NCBI RefSeq assembly: GCF_040183065.1
Contig: NC_091121.1
Coordinates: forward strand, 38,281,287-38,345,286
From: Periplaneta americana
Lineage: Eukaryota > Arthropoda > Insecta > Blattodea > Blattidae
Length of the DNA stretch: 64,000 bases
Direction of reading: 5' to 3'
The first letter of the stretch is position 1. Each line of letters begins with the position of its first letter. The translations under genes were made by a program, and so were the position numbers. Of the stretch, positions 1 to 61,335 are shown piece by piece. The notes under the pieces are model-generated. The model was not told where the DNA came from, ran no database searches, and saw only the letters and a list, made by a program, of their open reading frames with translations.

Positions 1-442
1 ACTGACAAACTGCTGCAAATTTTGCAGCGCCTGGAAACTCTGGATTCACGGCAAGGGGCAGCAGGGAGGAGGGGTAAAATTAACGCGCAAAGCATCCGAG
101 ACGAGACTGGCAGCTCCAGGGGAGGAAGTGGCTTCACCCTATAGTCCTTGACTCTGGTTTCGCTCTGACAGCACCAGGGGAGGAAGTGACTTCACTAACG
201 ATTGCGTGCATGTCATTGAGAGCGAAATTTTAAAAAAAAATTCGACCGCTAAATAGAGACTGCATAACAAATGTTTTTCACAACATAAAACGAGACAAGA
301 ACCACAAATGTCTGGGGGTGCTGCAGCTCCGCAGCCCCTCTTCGAAAGCCGCCCCTGGTCACCGACAATACCACCACCAGAGTGCTGCATTGGAGTTAAA
401 TCGCTCGCTTGAACTCGGTCGAATGTCGCACCCTCGAGTGAG
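1..442. other. No gene seen
   Basis: No convincing coding region. An imperfect direct repeat sits at about 112-139 and 167-195 (shared core CCAGGGGAGGAAGTG). Short open frames here have no family resemblance. Confidence 0.4.
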
Positions 443-452
443 ATAAGATCGA

Positions 453-686
453 ATGTTAAAAATGTTATGTTTTATTTAACGACGCTCGCAACTGCAGAGG
501 TTATATCAGCGTCGCCGGATGTGCCGGAATTTTGTCCCGCAGGAGTTCTTTTACATGCCAGTAAATCTACCGACATGAGCCTGTCGCATTTAAGCACACT
601 TAAATGCCATCGACCTGGCCCGGGATCGAACCCGCAACCTTGGGCATAGAAGGCCAGCGCTATACCAACTTGCCAACCAGGTCGAC
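453..686 (-). mobile_element. tRNA-derived SINE, family G copy 1
   Basis: The element runs on the minus strand. Its head (right end) has a tRNA-like Pol III promoter with B box GGTTCGATCCC, and its tail ends in GTTAAATAAAACATAACAT-like sequence. It is flanked by a 10-bp target-site duplication, ATAAGATCGA, at 443-452 and 687-696. Three further copies lie at 50129, 51130 and 62736. The open frames that cross it are by-products of the SINE, not genes. Confidence 0.88.
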
Positions 687-696
687 ATAAGATCGA

Positions 697-1974
697 TCGT
701 GATACGCTCGTAATAAATAGAAGCACAGTACAAGGTCATCTCACTGACATGTCTTATCTTGTATGGAAGGCGACAGATAAGATACACTTACGTTTTGCTC
801 AAATGGTAAAAATAAGGCTTTATTTTCTGCGTTTATGACAAACGTCTAATGCAGCAATCTAATGGAACGTACGAAAACATTAACATGAAGTTATAAATAA
901 AATAGTATGAAAAACTTCGATATACAGTTATTATTGTTAATTAATAATTATTCTATATTTGATTTATCACATAATATAATATACTAGGTCCATACATAGT
1001 GTTCCGCCTATATACTGCGACAATGTAGAAACGTTTTACAAAATATTATTGATATAGCAGTAGATTAATAACAATATTAGTACAGAGATAACGTCACACA
1101 AAATATAATAAAACGAATAATCATGCTGCACAACTGTTACAGACGCAAAGATTGATACACTATTAGAGATTATTTTTATTACTAGAAAACTTGATACGGT
1201 TCTTGCATTATCGTGATTGTGTTCTCCGTTTGTAATAATTACATTTACACCCAATAACATCTATCAGTTGTGGCAAAAACAAAATCACTCCTGTATGGAA
1301 AAAGAAAAACATTTACCTACAACATGTATAAGATATATCTTAAAGCAGGTTTTATAGTTGTACTATGGAGAGGTTAGTTAAACACTGCATAGTTTTGAAA
1401 TGATAAACATCTATGATGTTACTACACAGTTCATCATTGTAACAAGAACGAATGTCTAACGCTCGGCTTACACCGTTAGAGGATTTATCGCTCGCGACAA
1501 TTTTACCCATCATGCATGTGCGCTACCTATCGGATTATGCTATGAACTACTTGGCGCTCGAGCGAAAACGTCCGATGCAGACCTCTGACAACCACTGTTT
1601 GTCTTCAGTAGTTGAATGAGACACAGAAATATACCGCAAACTTTTCTTACCCGTTAGAATGTATATGTGATTACTACTGATTACTAGGGATCGAACCTTA
1701 TACACCAAGTTACTGGTGACAGCTACATAGCATGACGTTACTGCACAAGAACTGTCACAGTACAACACAACACAAGCAGACGGAGTTCGAGTCCATGCAG
1801 ATCAGAACGTGCGTTCACTACATTAACTTCGATGGTAAAGTATCGCATCGCTTTCTGTTGTATGTAGCTTCATCGCCGACGCTGGTGAAAACAGTTAAAA
1901 AAGCTCGTAACATTCAAGTATTGCGAAACGTGTAGACGAATTTGGCAGTCAACATTTTTCAGCAAAAGTTGACA
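697..1974. other. No gene seen
   Basis: AT-rich sequence with only short, unsupported open frames. I see no repeat shared with the rest of the window. Confidence 0.4.
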
Positions 1975-7158: not shown

Positions 7159-7866
7159 AATATTTTGTGCGAGATCGTGTGTATTTGCTTGGTTTCCGCA
7201 CAAAACCAATCCGCGGAAAGTCTAAAATTCCACATTCAGTATTCCCAACCAAACACACATAACAGTTTCCCTCTTCTTACCGCTTAAGCGACATATTGAT
7301 TTTACTGCTTTAGGCTTTTAACATATTATTTTTAGAGACGTTCAATATAGTAATAATTATAAATTGGAAACTTACCACTGCAATTTCACCTAAATTGCAC
7401 TGTTAATTATTGTTTTTAAATATTTGCAAAAATTAAGTAAACTCTACAACTCCACTAAAGTCTGCATTCGTGATGCAAGTAACATTAAGGAAGCCGTGAA
7501 AAATCAACAAGATTCCAGACTCATCACAGACTGGGGGGGAAAAAAAGACAGACGTATATCACGGCCTGCTGGAGTATAGTAAACACAGAAAACATTTTAA
7601 AGCAACAATGTTGAAGATAGATATTTTTGTTTTACAAATTTGCCGTCATTGAACAGAAACCAAGATGGAGATTTCATTGCAACTAACTAGAAATTTCTCT
7701 TTCTGGTATGTAATAAACGATCTTCGCACAAAATAATGTACGATACACGAGCGGTATGTTTTCTTTCAATTCTCGGAAATTAAAAAAGCTCAACTACGTT
7801 TCGCTTTTTCAAACTTTTCCTCGAACATGAAAACTTCAACATACCGTTGTAACGCATATTAATAGT
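7159..7866. repeat. Dispersed repeat family B, copy 1
   Basis: About 700 bp aligning almost throughout with 20183-20897, from TATTTTGTGCGAGATCGTG to TTGTAACGCATATTA. Copy 2 sits inside a foldback element, so family B is mobile. I could not define terminal repeats or a coding frame, so the class is unknown. Confidence 0.8.
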
Positions 7867-16807: not shown

Positions 16808-17040
16808 ATAATGACACTGTATCAACATAAGGTCTTACTAATAAACCGTGTACAATTTTTATAGCTACCAGACTTATACAGAGTTGGGACAAAAAACGTT
16901 ACTAATAAATCATACATAAGCGATGAATGAATAAGCAGTGTGTAACTATACATGGGATTTGATTTGCTGTAGTTATATACACGAAATGCCCTGTTTGAGC
17001 GTTGTACACAGAGAAATAAATGGCCGCCTCTCTAACAGCT

Positions 17041-17720
17041 GTTCGTATCGATTGTCATTTTATGATAACGATTGCCTTGTAATCACAGAATAACAAATCA
17101 AAGAGCATAGGATAATTAGAATAATATTGCTGTAGCTATACGCTTTGATCAAAATATAGCGTGGTAATCGATCAGACCCAGTTTTACTATCGATACTTAG
17201 CGCGGCACACATGCTTACACTATCTGATGCAACATAGTTATTCTGATAACTGATAACTCTCGTAATAAAATAACGACGAAATTATGAAGTAATTCTGTTA
17301 ACAGTTATATTGTTATACACTATCGGTCTTACTAATAAAAACTCTATGTACAGACGTTTAACTGTCTTATACTTATACAATGAGTAGCTCGTTTATAAAT
17401 CGTGTGTAAATTCCTTACTAATAATCACTACATACCTCGTGTATAACAGTACAACTGTTACACAGCTACGTCATAGTTTCGTCATTACTTCGTTACGAAA
17501 GGTAATAGAATATCTGAGGTTCTCTGTTGCATCCGGTAGAGCGCTCTAGTGTGGCGTGTTAAGTATGGATAGTACAAATGGCTCTAATCGATTACCACAC
17601 TACATTTTGGTCAAAGAGTACAAGCTACAGCAATATTATTCTAATAATTCTATGATCTTTGGTTTGTTCTTCTGTGGTTACAAGGTAACCATCATCATGT
17701 GGTTTTTCTGTTAACGAACG
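17041..17720. repeat. Long imperfect palindrome next to the array
   Basis: 17041-17320 pairs with 17440-17720. GAATAATATTGCTGTAGCT is mirrored in 17600-17660, GTGGTAATCGAT at 17161 is mirrored near 17590, and the outer ends are GTTCGTATCG and CGTTAACGAACG-like. The arms continue inward through GATGCAACA and ACGAAA..ATGA words to a centre near 17380. Its last 22 bases (17698-17720) are also the complement of the GTTCGTTAACAGAAAAACC word in every array unit. Confidence 0.75.
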
Positions 17721-17918
17721 ATTATTCAAATCAACTTTACAGGGAGTTATACCTGAAATCTTGATTTGCATAATACACGTCACTGTTCGTTAACAGAAAA
17801 ACCACAATTTAAGTCACACGGAGTTAGTGTGCACTCGAAGTTGGTTGCTTGACGGTTGTCAGCCCACTTTGAGGTCTGTGGATATAGAGGGAAGAATTGG
17901 ATCGGTGTCGGTTAGAGT

Positions 17919-17990
17919 TCCCGGGTAGCTCAGTGGTAGAGCGTTGGTACGTTAAACCAAGGGTCCCGGGTTCGATACCCGGCTCCGGAA
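17919..17990 (+). tRNA. tRNA-like gene, unit 1 (GTT anticodon position)
   Basis: A 72-base cloverleaf: acceptor TCCCGGG with CTCCGGA (one C-C mismatch at 4-69), D stem GCTC/GAGC, anticodon stem TTGGT/ACCAA with loop ACGTTAA, T stem CCGGG/CCCGG with loop TTCGATA. The A box is TAGCTCAGTGG and the B box GGTTCGATACC. Three bases after the end comes TTTTT (17994-17998), a Pol III terminator. Position 34-36 reads GTT (Asn), but position 33 is C instead of the usual U, so it may be a tRNA pseudogene or tRNA-derived repeat. Confidence 0.6.
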
Positions 17991-18204
17991 CAATTTTTCC
18001 CTCGAAATTATTCAAATCAACTTTACAGGGAGTTATACCTGAAATCTTGATTTGCATAATACACGTCACTGTTCGTTAACAGAAAAACCACAATTTAAGT
18101 CACACGGAGTTAGTGTGCACTCGAAGTTGGTTGCTTGACGGTTGTCAGCCCACTTTGAGGTCTGTGGATATAGAGGGAAGAATTGGATCGGTGTCGGTTA
18201 GAGT

Positions 18205-18276
18205 TCCCGGGTAGCTCAGTGGTAGAGCGTTGGTACGTTAAACCAAGGGTCCCGGGTTCGATACCCGGCTCCGGAA
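18205..18276 (+). tRNA. tRNA-like gene, unit 2
   Basis: Identical to the unit 1 cloverleaf, with TTTTT three bases downstream. Confidence 0.6.
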
Positions 18277-18490
18277 CAATTTTTCCCTCGAAATTATTCA
18301 AATCAACTTTACAGGGAGTTATACCTGAAATCTTGATTTGCATAATACACGTCACTGTTCGTTAACAGAAAAACCACAATTTAAGTCACACGGAGTTAGT
18401 GTGCACTCGAAGTTGGTTGCTTGACGGTTGTCAGCCCACTTTGAGGTCTGTGGATATAGAGGGAAGAATTGGATCGGTGTCGGTTAGAGT

Positions 18491-18562
18491 TCCCGGGTAG
18501 CTCAGTGGTAGAGCGTTGGTACGTTAAACCAAGGGTCCCGGGTTCGATACCCGGCTCCGGAA
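18491..18562 (+). tRNA. tRNA-like gene, unit 3
   Basis: Identical to the unit 1 cloverleaf, with TTTTT three bases downstream. Confidence 0.6.
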
Positions 18563-18776
18563 CAATTTTTCCCTCGAAATTATTCAAATCAACTTTACAG
18601 GGAGTTATACCTGAAATCTTGATTTGCATAATACACGTCACTGTTCGTTAACAGAAAAACCACAATTTAAGTCACACGGAGTTAGTGTGCACTCGAAGTT
18701 GGTTGCTTGACGGTTGTCAGCCCACTTTGAGGTCTGTGGATATAGAGGGAAGAATTGGATCGGTGTCGGTTAGAGT

Positions 18777-18848
18777 TCCCGGGTAGCTCAGTGGTAGAGC
18801 GTTGGTACGTTAAACCAAGGGTCCCGGGTTCGATACCCGGCTCCGGAA
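18777..18848 (+). tRNA. tRNA-like gene, unit 4
   Basis: Identical to the unit 1 cloverleaf, with TTTTT three bases downstream. The 3' part of the repeat in the next unit carries the ATATTG variant. Confidence 0.6.
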
Positions 18849-19061
18849 CAATTTTTCCCTCGAAATTATTCAAATCAACTTTACAGGGAGTTATACCTGA
18901 AATATTGATTTGCATAATACACGTCACTGTTCGTTAACAGAAAGCCACAATTTAAGTCACACGGAGTTAGTGTGCACTCGAAGTTGGTTGCTTGACGGTT
19001 GTCAGCCCACTTTGAGGTCTGTGGATATAGAGGGAAGAATTGGATCGGTGTCGGTTAGAGT

Positions 19062-19133
19062 TCCCGGGTAGCTCAGTGGTAGAGCGTTGGTACGTTAAAC
19101 CAAGGGTCCCGGGTTCGATACCCGGCTCCGGAA
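19062..19133 (+). tRNA. tRNA-like gene, unit 5
   Basis: Identical to the unit 1 cloverleaf, with TTTTT three bases downstream. Array similarity ends 67 bases later, where the complement of the outer GTCTTACTAATAAAC repeat follows. Confidence 0.6.
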
Positions 19134-19223
19134 CAATTTTTCCCTCGAAATTATTCAAATCAACTTTACAGGGAGTTATACCTGAAATCTTGATTTGCAT
19201 TATACACTGTTTATTAGTAAGAC

Positions 19224-19569: not shown

Positions 19570-21033
19570 CAGGGTGATTCACGAGGATTTAACGTCCCTT
19601 ACGGAGCTTATTTCCGAAGACATTCTGAGCAAAAGATGTCATATAAACATTTGTTCTAATCTCAATATTTTCCGAATTACACTAATTTGAAGTTGTTTGT
19701 AAAATATCACTATTCTTGAGTTTTAAAGGTAAAAGAATATTAGAGATAAAGAATGAACTATTCATAAGTATCATTTATTTAATTAGCTAGTATTCTGAAG
19801 CTAAAAATGTGTTATGAATTCCATAGTTGCTTCGTACAGAATTTTTTTTTCCGATTTTTAACTACAAAATTACATTTTCTTATGCATTTATCACAACAAT
19901 TGTTACAAATCACGCCACTCTTGTAATTTTTTTAAGACTGTACATTAGGAAGCATAATTAAACTGTAAAGAATCAAGTTCTTAAAGTCATATGATTTGTA
20001 ACAATTTTTGTGAAAAGTGCGTAAGAATGATGTAATTTTTAATTAAATATTGAAAGACAAAATCTGTACAAAGCAATTAACAACACATTTTTAGCTTCTG
20101 AACACTGGCTGATTAAAGAAATGACACTTCTGAATAGTTCATTCTCTATTTTTAATATTTTTTTTTTACTCTTAACACTAAAGAGGAAAGGTATTTTGAG
20201 CGAGATCGTGCATATTTGCTTGGTTTCCGCACAAAACCAATCCGCGGAAAGTCTAAAATTCCACATTCAGTATTCCCAACCTAACACACATAACAATTTC
20301 CCTCTTCTTACCGCTTAAGTGACATATTGATTTTACTGCTTTAGGCTTTTAACATATTATTTTTAGAGACGTTAAATATAGTAATAATTATAAACTGGAA
20401 ACTTACCACTGCAATTTCACCTAAATTGCACTGTTAATTATTGTTTTTAAATATTTGCAAAAATTAAGCAAACTCTACAACTCCACTACAGTTACTCCAT
20501 TCGTGATGCAAGTAACATTAAGGAAGCCGTGAAAAAATCAACAAGATTCCAGACTCATCATAGACTGGGGTGGGGGGGAAGACTGACGTATATCACGGCC
20601 TGCTGGAGTATAGTAAACACAGAAAACATTTTAAAGCAACAATGTTGAAGATAGATATGTTTGTTTTGCAAATTTGTCGTCATTGAACAGAAACCAAGAT
20701 GGAGATTTCATTGCAACTAATTATAAATTCCTCTTTCAGGTATGTAATAAACGATCTTCGCACAAAATAATGTACGGTACACGAGCGGTATGTTTTCTTT
20801 CAATTCTCGGAAATTAAAAAAGCTCAACTACGTTTCGCTTTTTCAAACTTTTCCTCCAACATGAAAACTTCAACATACCGCTCTTGTAACGCATATTACT
20901 ATTACAAACAACTTCAAATTAGTGTAACTCTGAAAATATTGAGATTAGGACACATATTCATATAACATTTTTGCTCAGAATGTCATCGGAAATAAGATCC
21001 GTAAGGGACGGTAAATCCTCGTGAATCAATCTG
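19570..21033. mobile_element. Foldback TIR element interrupted by repeat B
   Basis: The left end CAGGGTGATTCACGAGGATT and the right end, whose complement is CAGATTGATTCACGAGGATT, pair, and pairing continues inward for most of the element: 19570-19935 against 19940-20183 plus 20898-21033. The centre is near 19938. The right arm is broken by a family B repeat (20183-20897). Without it the element would be about 750 bp and nearly all palindrome. No coding frame. Confidence 0.78.
20183..20897. repeat. Dispersed repeat family B, copy 2
   Basis: Aligns with 7159-7866 over about 700 bp with few differences. Its position inside one arm of a palindrome shows it inserted after the foldback element formed. 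Confidence 0.8.
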
Positions 21034-33955: not shown

Positions 33956-34236
33956 ATTCATGGCGTGGTCGCAAACCGGTACGTACCGTATATACAGAAC
34001 GAACGAATTCATAGCATGTTGCGGTGCGTATTCTGATTGCGTGTAAGAGCAGCATATGAGACGTAAGACGTTGTTGGAATACCATGAGATAACTGGAGCT
34101 TCTGGAGAAAACCCCTGTTTTTTCTGGATCGCGGGCTTGCCCAATACAAGTTATAAATCGGAGGTTGCCGGGGATGGAACCTGAATCCACAGGATTATAA
34201 GTCCAGCGCTCTAGCCACTAAACCACCGTGGCAGCT
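33956..34236 (-). mobile_element. tRNA-derived SINE, family W
   Basis: On the minus strand the head (about 34236 to 34165) reads GCTGCCACGGTGGTTTAGTG, with A box TGGTTTAGTGG, a short stem-loop with CTTATAA, and B-box-like GGTTCCATCCC. The body runs down to the AT-rich end at 33956. It is a fifth SINE type for the window, and I see no second copy here. Confidence 0.65.
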
Positions 34237-37400: not shown

Positions 37401-39511
37401 AAGTAACGTAAACTGAAGTAGCTACCGTATTTTATATGGTATTGCATTTGATGTGCATTTCTTATCTTAGCATTTCTCATTCTTTACCTTCCTTTCTAAT
37501 CCTACTAATTGTTTTTAGTAGGTTATTTTACAACGCTTTATCAACATTAGGTTATTTAGCATCTGAATGAGATAAAGTTGATAATGCCGGTGAAATCAGT
37601 CCGGGGTCCAGCACCGATAGTTACCCAGCATTTGCTCATATTGGGCAGTGGCGGCTGATTGACTGAGGCAAGTGAGGCCGGGCCTCAGTCACTTGGCTTA
37701 ACTGAAATCAAATTTTGTTTTTATGTAATGTATTAGTTATTTGAATTAAGCATATATCGCTGTAGAAGCATTTGAAAACTTTGTGATGTAGATAGACCTG
37801 TTTTGCAGTAAAATTTGTTCCTGAGGCCAGGATCACTCGTGCCGGGTCTGGCTTGTGATGTATATAGACCTGTTTTGCAGTAAAATTTGTTCCTGAGGCC
37901 AGGATCGCTCGTGCCGGGTCTGGCTTGTGATGTATATAGACCTGTTTTGCAGTAAAATTTGTTCATGAGGCCAGGATCGCTCGTGCTGGGTCTGCTTCTG
38001 GATTTTCGTTTGTCTTCGCGGGCTTTTGACGTTGCGCTTAAAACGTACTGAGGCACAATTCGGCTGGCCTGGTCAGGTTTCACTCCTCTCAACCATGGGC
38101 CGGCCTCAAGGGTAGAGTGGGGTGGGAATAGGGTGACTTGTCTTCCTAAATAGGCCATAAATAACAAACATTCCAGATCTTTGGCAGGCAGAGACCCATA
38201 CTATTCTCTCCTCTTATGTCTTAGTTTATGACTTAAGCGAGGGTGTTTTACTATTGTACTTCGTGTAGTGAATCTGGGCCAATGTTATGTATTTCGGGAA
38301 AATATAAACAGAAACAAATGCCAGAAATAATACAGGTGTAGTTAATTCATTGTTAGAGTGTCCTTTTTCGAGAAGAAATAATATTGAAAGAAAGGAAGTT
38401 TTAAATAAAGAAAGAGCCGACCGAGATACCTACGACATCGCAGACAATTTTTCTGACAGATAATCTTAAAACGCGAGTTTCTGTTGCATCCTGGTATGGG
38501 CAACATAAATGGTTAAGTGGTAATGTGGTGCAAAATAAACTTCTCTGTTGGCCTTGTTTGTTGCTGTCAAAGAAAAAAAATAAAAAGAAAAGAAAGAAAG
38601 GGAAATTTCAACACATAATATGGGTTGCTTCATCACACTGAAACAATCACTGAAACTCGCAGCATAACAGCTTATTTGATGAGTGAAATTATTATTTTTC
38701 ATTACTAGTACTAATAATAATAATAATACAGTAATAATGATATTAATAATATAACAACAATAATAATTAATATCATAAATAAACATTTTCTATCGGAGGC
38801 ACTTGAACTAGTTGCATCTGGACTCACCGAGGATTTGGATCACTGACCACTACTGATATTGGGTTGAGGGAAAACCCCGGAAAAACCTCAACCAGGTAAC
38901 TTGCCCCGACAGGGAAATCGAACCCTGGTTTCACGGCCAGACGCGCTAACCGTTACTCCACAGGTGTGGACTACTAATTGTTTCCTTATTTGTCTTCACA
39001 ATAGCAGCACCAAGCTCTGTTGCCTTCGACAGAGGTAGGAATAAACCAGTTGTCTTTTCTTCATCACAAAACTTTATGGCATTACAACGCTCTGCGCTTG
39101 GCTACGAAACACACATCTTCCTACACGCGGTATTACGACTAGATTGAAACACTAGGCACTGGATGTGACGACACTCCAGCAGTATACATACCCAGCGAGC
39201 ACAGAGTTCCTCATTCTGCCATGACGGGTCCCACCTTGGTCGCGTAGTATGTTCAGTATACTCAAAAAACTAACAAAAAATATTATTTTGAAAGTGTGTT
39301 GAAATAGTGGATCAACTGTAACTAACCTTCAGTTTTATTTTGAAAATGGTTTCGGTTACAGGCCCATAAAGTACTGGAAGAGATGCAGTCCATAGCACGT
39401 GTGGTGAGCAATCTGGAGAAGGAACAAACTTCTGAGATGGACATAAATATGAAAAAGTTCTGTGATTCTTATGCAGCAGAAACAAAATGCCTACATGAAT
39501 GTGACGGATAA
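34461..39511 (+). CDS. Four-exon gene, unrecognised protein of about 133 aa
   Basis: Coding exons are 34461-34473 (ATG GGG GAG CCA A, then GTAAGTA), 35379-35488 (after TTTAATTTCAG, donor G|GTTTGT), 36291-36419 (after CCTACCTTCACAG, donor AGG|GTCAGT) and 39362-39511 (after TTCGGTTACAG, ending TAA). Phases 1, 0, 0 join without a stop, which chance rarely gives. The product is hydrophilic: a basic stretch SVAKKRKSIPQACAQFQ in exon 2, acidic FDESRYDDEDLWKSQNS in exon 3, and a likely coiled coil, AHKVLEEMQSIARVVSNLEK, in exon 4. No signal peptide or membrane segment. It looks like a small coiled-coil adaptor or complex subunit, but I cannot name it. A four-codon upstream frame (34361-34375) may lie in its 5' UTR. 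Intron 3 is loaded with transposons. Confidence 0.78.
34474..35378. other. Intron 1 of the four-exon gene
   Basis: No repeat or second gene recognised in it. Confidence 0.6.
35739..35890 (-). mobile_element. MITE family C, copy 3 (3' truncated), in intron 2
   Basis: Starts CACAGTCTAGTATATACAG; similarity ends at CACAACTCAAAG, so the terminal CTTCGTGACTGT...TAGACTGTG is missing. Confidence 0.82.
35920..36155. mobile_element. Small foldback repeat in intron 2
   Basis: 35920-35991 and 36084-36155 are inverted copies, roughly 62 of 71 positions matching (TTGATTTTATGAAATCTC mirrored by GGTTTCATAAAATCAA, and a shared ATAATTTTTCAGGAGGAAG word). The loop is about 90 bp. Likely a MITE; no target duplication was identified. 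Confidence 0.65.
37646..38855. mobile_element. Non-autonomous hAT element T inside the SINE
   Basis: The left end is CAGTGGCGGCTGATTGACTG and the right end ...CACTGACCACTACTG (complement CAGTAGTGGTCAG). A perfect 8-bp duplication ATATTGGG lies at 37638-37645 and 38856-38863, and this octamer is present once in the intact SINE H copy at 51429. 1,210 bp; no transposase. Confidence 0.9.
37789..38004. repeat. 72-bp tandem repeat, three units, in hAT element T
   Basis: Units begin GTGATGTA(G/T)ATAGACCTGT at about 37781, 37855 and 37927 and end GCC(A/G)GGTCTGGCTT. The period, a multiple of three, keeps a minus-strand 144-codon frame open (TSDPGLRNKFYCKTGLYTSQ repeated). I regard that frame as a by-product. 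Confidence 0.9.
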
Positions 39512-55449: not shown

Positions 55450-56704
55450 TAACTCCATATGTAGATGAAATTATTGGGGATCATCAGTGTGGTTTTAGGC
55501 GTAATAGATCAACTATTGACCAGATATTTTTGTATTCGACAGATAATGGAGAAAAAATGGGAATATAAGGGTAGAGTGCATCAGTTATTCACAGATTTCA
55601 AAAAGGCATATGACTCGGTTAAGAGAGAAGTTTTATATGATTTTCTTATTGAATTTGGTATTCCCAAGAAACTAGTTCGATTAATTAAAATGTGTCTCAG
55701 TGAAACGTACAGCAGAGTTTGTATAGGTCAGTTTCTGTCAGATGTGTTTCCAATTCATTGTGGGCTAAAGCAAGGAGATGCACTATCATCTTTACATTTA
55801 ACTTTGCTCTAGAGTATAACATTAGGAAAGTCCAGGATAATACAGAGGGTTTGGAATTGAACGGGTTACATCAGCTGCTTGTCTATGCGGATGATGTGAA
55901 TATGTTAGGAGGAAATCCACAAACGATTAGGGAAAACACGGGAATTTTACTGGAAGCAAGTAAAGAGATAGGTTTGGAAATAAATCCCAAAAAGACAAAG
56001 TATATGATTATGTCTCGTGACCAGAATATTGGACGAAATGGAAATATAAAAATTGGAAATTTATCTATTGAAGAGGTGGAGAAGTTCAAATATCTTGGAG
56101 CAACAATAACAAATATAAATGATACTCGGGAGGAAATTAAACATAGAATAAAGATGGGAAATGCCTGTTATTATTTGGTTGACAAGCTTTTATCATCCAG
56201 TCTGCTGTCAAAAAATCTGAAAGTTAGAATTTATAAAACAATTATATTACCAGTTGTTCTTTATGGTTGTGAAACTTGGACTCTCACTTTGAGAGAGGAA
56301 CAAATATTAAGGGTGTTTGAGAATAAAGTGTTTAGGAAAATATTTGGGGCTAAGAGGGATGAAGTTACAGGAGAATGGAGAAAGTTACACAACACAGAAC
56401 TGCACGCATTGTATTCTTCACCTGACATAATTAGGAACATTAAATCCAGACGTTTGAGATGGGCAGGGCACGTAGCACGTATGGGCGAATCCAGAAATGC
56501 ATATAGAGTGTTAGTTGGGAGGTCGGAGGGAAAAAGAGCTTTAGGGAGGCCGAGACGTAGATGGGAAGATAATATTAAAATGGATTTGAGAGAGGTGGGA
56601 TATGATGATAGAGAATGGATTATTCTTGCTCAGGATAGGGACCGATGGCAGACTTATGTGAGGGTGGCAATGAACCTCCGGGTTCCTTAAAAGCCAGTAA
56701 GTAA
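55450..56704 (+). mobile_element. LINE family D, middle copy (recombinant)
   Basis: Begins TAACTCCATATGTAGATGAA in the RT fingers and ends with a stop plus CCAGTAAGTAAGTAAG. Frames 55465-55812 and 55719-56690 together cover RT fingers (FKKAYDSVKREVLYDFLIEF), palm ([20 protein letters not shown], catalytic YADD intact) and C-terminus ([20 protein letters not shown]). An early frameshift (ATATTTTTGTATTCG) and a second near 55793 break the protein. Product of the tandem duplication. Confidence 0.93.
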
Positions 56705-57766: not shown

Positions 57767-59021
57767 TAACTCCATATGTAGATGAAATTATTGGGGATCA
57801 TCAGTGTGGTTTTAGGCGTAATAGATCAACTATTGACCAGATATTTTTGTATTCGACAGATAATGGAGAAAAAATGGGAATATAAGGGTAGAGTGCATCA
57901 GTTATTCACAGATTTCAAAAAGGCATATGACTCGGTTAAGAGAGAAGTTTTATATGATTTTCTTATTGAATTTGGTATTCCCAAGAAACTAGTTCGATTA
58001 ATTAAAATGTGTCTCAGTGAAACGTACAGCAGAGTTTGTATAGGTCAGTTTCTGTCAGATGTGTTTCCAATTCATTGTGGGCTAAAGCAAGGAGATGCAC
58101 TATCATCTTTACATTTAACTTTGCTCTAGAGTATAACATTAGGAAAGTCCAGGATAATACAGAGGGTTTGGAATTGAACGGGTTACATCGGCTGCTTGTC
58201 TATGCGGATGATGTGAATATGTTAGGAGGAAATCCACAAACGATTAGGGAAAACACGGGAATTTTACTGGAAGCAAGTAAAGAGATAGGTTTGGAAATAA
58301 ATCCCAAAAAGACAAAGTATATGATTATGTCTCGTGACCAGAATATTGGACGAAATGGAAATATAAAAATTGGAAATTTATCTATTGAAGAGGTGGAGAA
58401 GTTCAAATATCTTGGAGCAACAATAACAAATATAAATGATACTCGGGAGGAAATTAAACATAGAATAAAGATGGGAAATGCCTGTTATTATTTGGTTGAC
58501 AAGCTTTTATCATCCAGTCTGCTGTCAAAAAATCTGAAAGTTAGAATTTATAAAACAATTATATTACCAGTTGTTCTTTATGGTTGTGAAACTTGGACTC
58601 TCACTTTGAGAGAGGAACAAATATTAAGGGTGTTTGAGAATAAAGTGTTTAGGAAAATATTTGGGGCTAAGAGGGATGAAGTTACAGGAGAATGGAGAAA
58701 GTTACACAACACAGAACTGCACGCATTGTATTCTTCACTTGACATAATTAGGAACATTAAATCCAGACGTTTGAGATGGGCAGGGCATGTAGCACGTATG
58801 GGCGAATCCAGAAATGCATATAGAGTGTTAATTGGGAGGCCGGAGGGAAGAAGATCTTTAGGGAGGCCGAGACGTAGATGGGAAGGTAATATTAAAATGG
58901 ATTTGAGGGAGGTGGGATACGATGATAGAGAATGGATTAACCTTGCTCAGGATAGGGACCAATGGTGGGCTTATGTGAGGGCAGTAATGAACCTCCAGGT
59001 TCCTTAAAAGCCAGTAAGTAA
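57767..59021 (+). mobile_element. LINE family D, right copy, 14-bp TSD
   Basis: Same start as the middle copy. The 323-codon frame 58036-59007 carries YADD and ends [20 protein letters not shown] ... [13 protein letters not shown]. Duplication GTCCA(C/T)TATCAACC at 57753-57766 and 59022-59035 shows this is the original insertion in the antisense pseudogene. Its 3' 300 bases differ from the other two copies ([10 protein letters not shown] against [10 protein letters not shown]). Confidence 0.93.
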
Positions 59022-60722: not shown

Positions 60723-60787
60723 CTATGACGAACTCCTAAAGCTCGAATCTTCTTGTTTTAATAGTCAACACATGTGAATATATTTAA

Positions 60788-61335
60788 TACATAGAAGCAT
60801 TCATTTTTAATATTTATTTATTCTTTTCACTCCAAAAGCCGATGTTCTTTTCAAGTAATATAAATAAATAAGCAGAGAAAGAAGACATTCCTTCAGAAAA
60901 TACATTTGTAAATCAAATTATACTGTTGTGTTATGTTTATTTTTCTACTGTTAGGCCTACCTGTGGATATTTTAATGCATAGAAACATTCATTTTTAATA
61001 TTTACTTATTCTTTTCACTCCGAAATACAATGTTCTTTTCAAATCAATATAAATAAATAAGCAAAGAAAGAAAACATTCCTTCAGAAAATGCATTTGTAA
61101 ATCAAATTATACTGTTGTGTTATGTTTATTTTTCTACTGTTAGACCTACATGTGGATATTTTAATGCATAGAAACATTCATTTTTACTATTTACTTATTC
61201 TTTTCACTCCGAAATCCAATGTTCTTTTCAAATCAATATAAATAAATAAGCAAAGAAAGAGGACATTCCTTCAGAAAATGCATTTGTAAATCAAATTATA
61301 CTGTTGCGTTATGTTTACTTTTCTACTGTTAGGCC
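60788..61335 (+). repeat. Repeat family P, tandem, three units of about 185 bp
   Basis: Units start ATAGAA(G/A)CATTCATTTTTA at about 60791, 60980 and 61167, each with CTTATTCTTTTCACTCC, GACATTCCTTCAGAAAATGC and TTTTTCTACTGTTAGGCC. Immediately after (61338) comes CAGGGTGCGAATTAACGGGG with a G run, possibly a hAT terminus. Confidence 0.93.

Follow-up and report, generated by a model that had tools for sequence, protein, structure and literature searches.

A tandem array of five tRNA-like genes in the genome of the cockroach Periplaneta americana is probably one insertion of a non-autonomous retroelement of the Penelope-like (PLE) type, the repeat unit of which carries an RNA polymerase III (Pol III) tRNA-like gene. 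The array is a copy of a dispersed element. A first-pass annotation made from the letters alone had observed the array correctly, while its reading of it as a local array is wrong.

The array and its flanks

The window, i.e., the whole stretch of DNA analysed, covers 64,000 nts of contig NC_091121.1. Tandem Repeats Finder places a tandem array at 17721-19207, with a period of 286, 5.2 copies and 99% matches. The units are 286, 286, 286, 286 and 285 bp long and are followed by a 58-bp partial unit, which the repeat finder extends to 19207, yet copies at other loci end at unit position ~48-50. Alignment of the five units leaves 3 variable columns, every one in unit 5; the units are thus almost identical, as had been noticed at first pass, and recent growth of the window array is compatible with this count. 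The features of the array are:

17721..18006, plus strand: unit 1, 286 bp, pseudo-LTR-like repeat unit (repeat finder, alignment; 286-bp matches at other genome loci)
18007..18292, plus strand: unit 2, 286 bp (repeat finder, alignment)
18293..18578, plus strand: unit 3, 286 bp (repeat finder, alignment)
18579..18864, plus strand: unit 4, 286 bp (repeat finder, alignment)
18865..19149, plus strand: unit 5, 285 bp, 3 differences from units 1-4 (alignment)
19150..19199, plus strand: terminal partial unit, unit positions 1-50, with the hairpin tail at its end (~48-type end)
17698..17720, minus strand: remnant of an opposed (minus) arm, unit positions about 64-86
17728..17768, plus strand: hairpin "tail", unit positions 8-48, which marks one of the two insertion ends elsewhere

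The array in the window is a plus arm only, with a short remnant of a minus arm on its left. This 23-bp inverted piece of the unit (17698-17720) pairs with 17785-17806 in unit 1 to give a 109-nt hairpin. The right end of the window copy obeys the ~48 rule seen at other loci (see below), while its left end is the truncated minus-arm remnant, adjoining a different, abundant repeat. A search for a target-site duplication (TSD) around the window copy found none.

The flank left of the array is a separate dispersed repeat, as judged from the best 40 of 4383 candidates. With a longer query, 17698 is the last base in 38 of its 39 other scored copies and the remaining copy stops two bases earlier, hence the flank repeat is a neighbour that abuts the array. 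Most scored copies of this repeat (17314-17698) start near 17299-17324, and a diverged inverted copy of it seems to occupy 17062-17313. The 637-nt palindrome at 17062-17698, together with the TTACTAATAA motifs, of which the window has 5, none of them outside 16835-19220, was considered as a composite foldback with the array and was rejected, as none of the 39 other loci of the unit matches 17062-17697.

Dispersal in the genome

The genome search with one unit, which the first-pass annotation had proposed, returned 149 matches in the best 40 of 1268 candidates from P. americana. The matches were grouped into the window and 39 other loci, which were fetched with their flanks; because the scored candidates are the copies closest to the unit of the window, the 39 loci are no random sample.

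Among 541 candidates, 27 predicted proteins of P. americana (P0121-P0147) match reading frames of the unit at E <= 0.1, and these matches make it likely that they are repeat-contaminated gene models. One of the 27 has the source name voltage-dependent calcium channel. A search with an 83-aa frame of the unit yielded nothing, exact DNA patterns gave 0 matches in collections of viral contigs and of genome contigs, and a plasmid search gave no match. Matches in six phage records lie over the tRNA region and cover 20-30% of the unit. A literature search with sequence words retrieved no paper.

The tRNA-like gene

In the array, ARAGORN calls tRNA-Asn (gtt) five times, and the Rfam tRNA model RF00005 scores 55.8 bits at each of the five sites, over 72 nts each. 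The five tandem tRNA-like genes in a 286-bp array are hence confirmed by Tandem Repeats Finder, ARAGORN and Rfam, the last of which also supplies the covariance-model check suggested at first pass. The genes and the terminator-like run of the first one are:

17919..17990, plus strand: tRNA-like gene of unit 1, Asn GTT by ARAGORN (ARAGORN, Rfam)
18205..18276, plus strand: tRNA-like gene of unit 2 (ARAGORN, Rfam)
18491..18562, plus strand: tRNA-like gene of unit 3 (ARAGORN, Rfam)
18777..18848, plus strand: tRNA-like gene of unit 4 (ARAGORN, Rfam)
19062..19133, plus strand: tRNA-like gene of unit 5 (ARAGORN, Rfam)
17994..17998, plus strand: T5, Pol III terminator-like, 3 bases behind the tRNA of unit 1; it recurs in each unit

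The 72-base cloverleaf, the promoter boxes (A box TAGCTCAGTGG and B box GGTTCGATACC, both intact in the window unit) and the T5 three bases behind are all as claimed in the first-pass annotation. The same holds for the GTT anticodon and the two features singled out there as unusual, i.e., the C at position 33 of the anticodon loop (ACGTTAA) and a mismatch in the acceptor stem, which is C4-C69. U33 is regarded as near-universal in tRNAs. Two properties were looked for as tests of a functional tRNA-Asn, U33 and a paired acceptor stem, and the gene has C33 in place of the first and C4-C69 in place of the second; a working tRNA is disfavoured for these two reasons.

Conservation was counted in full units of at least 90% identity, lower-identity or incomplete units being dropped. 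This left 87 units from 40 loci, in which intact copies number 83 for the A box, 83 for the B box, 82 for the T5 and 80 for the ACGTTAA loop. Unit position 241 (A in 71 units and G in 16) sets most of the 87 apart from the units of the window, and an A at unit position 204, found in 29 of 87, turns the G-U pair 6-67 into A-U. Rfam tRNA scores reach 60.7 bits in units elsewhere (20 of the 39 loci scanned). Among young copies, and with three highly variable positions left out, the tRNA region shows no extra conservation over the upstream body. In one copy of ~80% identity (L032:5760-6048), CAATTTTTC is identical in 9/9 columns, the tRNA in 58/73 and the body in 106/149. Strong conservation of the tRNA part was rejected as a reading, since it is absent among close copies and the contrast in this one distant copy is too little to build on.

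Structure of the insertions

Head-to-head inverted arms are found in 26 of the 39 loci, always with the minus arm on the left and the plus arm on the right. The size of the arms ranges from about 0.1 to 6 units across loci, and the multi-unit arms at other loci show that the element itself is constructed with units in tandem. The point at which the arms switch differs between parsed two-armed loci, with only L022 and L046 having one in common. At 22 arm junctions, the two arms overlap by 1-7 bp (14 junctions), meet bluntly (3) or are separated by unassigned bases (5).

The outer ends recur at two unit positions, ~7 (CCTCGAAATTATTC) and ~48 (CTTGATTTGC), and scatter by a few bases around each. 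With element limits that were partly set by hand after an earlier inspection of the ends, here as for the end words below, both ends were recognised in 24 of the 40 loci (window included), one end in 15 and none in 1. Every one of the 24 loci with both ends recognised has one ~7 end and one ~48 end, implying exactly one 41-nt hairpin tail per classifiable insertion. Unit positions 1-58 fold into a hairpin of -16.5 kcal/mol, and the 41 nts between the two end positions lie inside it.

A word of at least 10 bp is common to both ends in 28 of 39 loci, compared to 2 of 546 control pairs made of shifted or mismatched flanks. The shared words are 10-15 bp long with a mode of 13, chance extensions included. 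No shared 10-bp word was seen in 11 of the 39 loci, of which L012 (13 bp) and L046 (12 bp) gave one in a wider search. Five plus-only copies (L012, L015, L017, L027 and L042) start within the tRNA region, at unit positions 242-260, and only L012 among them has a long end word, the 13 bp just mentioned. Judged by these words, most loci are separate insertions flanked by apparent target-site duplications.

The dispersal of the unit throughout the genome, mostly between such duplications, does not support the first-pass suggestions of an amplified local tRNA pseudogene, a regulatory Pol III array or a satellite. More generally, a working or once-working tRNA-Asn(GTT) cluster, regulatory Pol III array or satellite that was amplified locally would account for five near-identical copies of a 55.8-bit cloverleaf with a T5, but we consider it very improbable in view of C33 and the C4-C69 mismatch, of the scattered and mostly TSD-flanked loci, some with about one unit only, and of an array that stops at ~48, the unit position where other insertions end.

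The T5 directly behind the tRNA bears out the statement made at first pass that the layout is that of a tRNA gene and not that of a classical SINE transcription unit. Dispersed SINE copies continuing past the T5 had been named there as an observation that would refute its reading, and in substance this is what is seen: dispersed copies run past the T5 to the ~7 and ~48 ends. Most of them are TSD-flanked insertions with head-to-head arms, which is not the usual SINE layout. Because the T5 stands before both insertion ends, it blocks the simple case in which Pol III transcription alone supplies the RNA for retrotransposition. The tRNA-like gene would then act as a promoter whose terminator is read through, as a signal for the processing of longer transcripts, or would be a passenger.

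This block weighs against a tRNA-derived SINE moved by a LINE with unusual tandem and 5′-inverted insertions, which we regard as unlikely, although the unit does have a tRNA head with A and B boxes. In its available text, PMC9191728 names four criteria for SINEs, and the present family has the Pol III promoter, the length (150 bp or more), the copy number (3 or more) and the TSDs that they ask for. The Blattella SINEs Sbg1-9 of the same source have, like the present family, a tRNA head and TSDs of 10-15 bp, which the end words also fit, and the five plus-only copies resemble 5′ truncations. However, the T5 of the present family lies between the tRNA and both ends, the ends listed have no A-rich or microsatellite tail, and no tail repeats were seen at them. 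The B box makes one departure from the SINE consensus quoted in that text. Furthermore, the outer ends are fixed and of opposite kinds in 24/24 loci, whereas after a 5′ inversion one of the outer ends should be random.

Inverted arms of tandem units with variable arm length are also expected of a foldback-type DNA transposon, in which long inverted repeats consist of tandem subunits (as in Tetris, Galileo and FB), and Tetris, described in the accessible part of PMC4079207 as a foldback element that seeds satellites, offers a precedent. Such a transposon seems quite improbable here: in 24/24 loci the 41-nt tail sets one end apart from the other in place of matching terminal inverted repeats, the ends wobble by a few bases, the end words vary between 10 and 15 bp in place of a fixed TSD length, and the switch points vary between loci.

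A proposed Penelope-like mode of insertion

From the dispersal, the TSDs, the end rule, the arm layout and the mostly intact promoter boxes, all of which are observed, we infer mobilisation by PLE machinery. The element works like a PLE derivative, the likeness lying in its layout. In the proposed mechanism, the 286-bp unit would take the role of a pseudo-LTR (pLTR) and positions 8-48 that of the terminal hairpin tail. The template RNA would cover one or more units and end at the tail (position ~48), and an endonuclease/reverse transcriptase of the PLE type would make a staggered cut in the target. A first cDNA, primed from one target strand, would begin at the tail, and a second, primed by the other target strand, would begin at position ~7, a little way inside the hairpin. 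The head-to-head joining of these cDNAs, at points that vary and often share 1-7 bases, would leave unequal inverted arms with a single tail, and a target duplication of roughly 10-15 bp, while tandem or circular RNA templates would give multi-unit arms. The tRNA-like gene is probably retained as an internal Pol III promoter; its transcript should stop at the T5, before either end, and the mobilised RNA would consequently need read-through or another promoter.

The unit contains no ORF for a reverse transcriptase or a GIY-YIG endonuclease. GIY-YIG, the PLE endonuclease domain, has 108 matches in the genome in the best 150 of 7670 candidates, and ten of the 108, counted by eye, stand in minus/plus pairs within about 10 kb. 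An autonomous PLE with the unit or the tail was not found; the search covered the two readable 3′ flanks of GIY-YIG matches (L048 and L049), which are unlike the unit. Downstream of the GIY-YIG matches, both flanks bear a core CTGATGATG..CGAAAACGTTC (L048:1091 and L049:944), which we tentatively take to be the PLE hammerhead. According to PMC7229834, in its available part, PLEs have minimal type I hammerheads, and the identification draws on that statement. Rfam did not report the cores of L048 and L049. The hammerhead core CTGANGA is absent on both strands of the unit, and Rfam reports no hammerhead in the unit, a weak result as it missed the two cores in L048 and L049 too. Against the PLE reading stand the two unlike 3′ flanks with their hammerhead cores, end words longer than the TSDs of Penelope, the 11 loci that gave no such word, the missing TSD and truncated left end of the window copy, the obstacle that the T5 poses to Pol III transcription, and a tRNA region without extra conservation among young copies.

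Comparison with known elements

As described in the accessible passages of PMC3846280, Penelope pLTRs occur in direct and inverted orientation, mostly as head-to-head arms, with partial tandems. The same passages report TSDs of 8-10 bp, a 31-bp tail that one inverted pLTR may carry and the mobilisation in trans of unrelated sequence between pLTRs, and leave the full elucidation of the PLE cycle to future studies. The PLEs of Adineta vaga, in that text, resemble the present family in their direct and inverted, head-to-head terminal units, palindrome, TSD, variable arms and partial tandems; apart from its longer TSD words, the family is like the Penelope elements described there on each of these points. 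The one-sided tail is 31 bp in A. vaga and 41 here, and TSD words are 10-15 bp here compared to the 8-10 bp of Penelope; no sequence link to PLEs was seen. Unlike the A. vaga elements, the present family has no ORF in the unit and a tRNA-like gene in every unit.

Metazoan retrozymes, according to the consulted part of PMC7229834, are likewise non-autonomous and made of non-coding tandem units of ~300 bp with TSDs of >4 bp; they carry a type I hammerhead, whereas the present unit has the tRNA-like gene in place of a CTGANGA core. Similarly, Helenus/TRIMp3, in the excerpted text of PMC10886601, is a non-autonomous retroelement with a tRNA-like Pol III promoter within its terminal repeat, but it has direct LTRs, a PBS, a PPT and TSDs of 4-5 bp, in contrast to the inverted arms, single tail and 10-15-bp words found here. 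Reptile SINE-derived satellites, as far as PMC10702118 describes them in its available sections, are also tandem units from a small Pol III element; the present loci differ from them in being mostly separate TSD-flanked insertions, not grown from a SINE copy.

Related families and other repeats of the window

Two further families were chance encounters in the flanks of fetched loci. The second family (L024:974-1604) has a different unit, which combines a tRNA-like gene (40 bits) with GAATTTTTCTC (T5). Its inverted arms are 96% complementary over 163 nts, a hairpin-rich tail stands at its right end and none at its left end, and AATTAATTT is found on both sides of the element, by eye only. Across the tRNA and T5 region, the third kind (L022:1900-2110, with the relatives L036:1595-1774 and L013:590-730) is ~83% identical to the window units. 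L041 contains three related copies (72%), at 208-319 (minus), 396-507 (plus) and 776-887 (plus). As far as these sequences can tell, the combination of a tRNA gene with opposed arms is probably not a single accident.

We hold a bolder proposal only tentatively and consider it doubtful: a clan of hammerhead-less cockroach elements may be mobilised by Penelope, in which a Pol III tRNA-like gene with its terminator would do the job of the retrozyme ribozyme, either as a promoter or as an RNA-processing module (RNase P and RNase Z would cut multi-unit transcripts and tRNA ligase would close the circles).

The window contains other repeats. On the minus strand, 34167-34226 gives a weak tRNA-like match (29.8 bits), which was read as part of a different SINE-like repeat. 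Further tandem arrays lie at 60770-61335 (189 bp x 3) and 37781-37994 (72 bp x 3), two repeat copies at 20192-20901 and 7161-7864 are 95% identical, and near-identical reverse-transcriptase frames of 328 aa stand in tandem at 55704-56690 and 58021-59007. The first of these frames (searched as 55704-56687) has its best protein match in P. americana, at 89% identity over 88% of the query, and all but one of the at least 120 matching proteins bear the name of this species.

Implications

A literature search for a Penelope-like or pLTR non-autonomous element with a tRNA-derived Pol III gene retrieved no description of one. If the tRNA gene is needed for movement, Pol III would be coupled to Penelope-type retrotransposition, a coupling not met with in that search. 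In addition, the near-identical copies and the strict two-end rule, together with the duplications and the readable junctions, would allow the succession of steps at both target strands to be inferred from sequence.

The RefSeq annotation of this genome comprises 4,974 tRNAs, as stated in the accessible part of PMC12774602, and cockroach tRNA gene calls may include many copies of mobile elements. Should the proposed clan exist, it would add to SINEs and TRIMp3 as a means for tRNA genes to spread, and some of the high number of tRNAs in this genome could be due to it.
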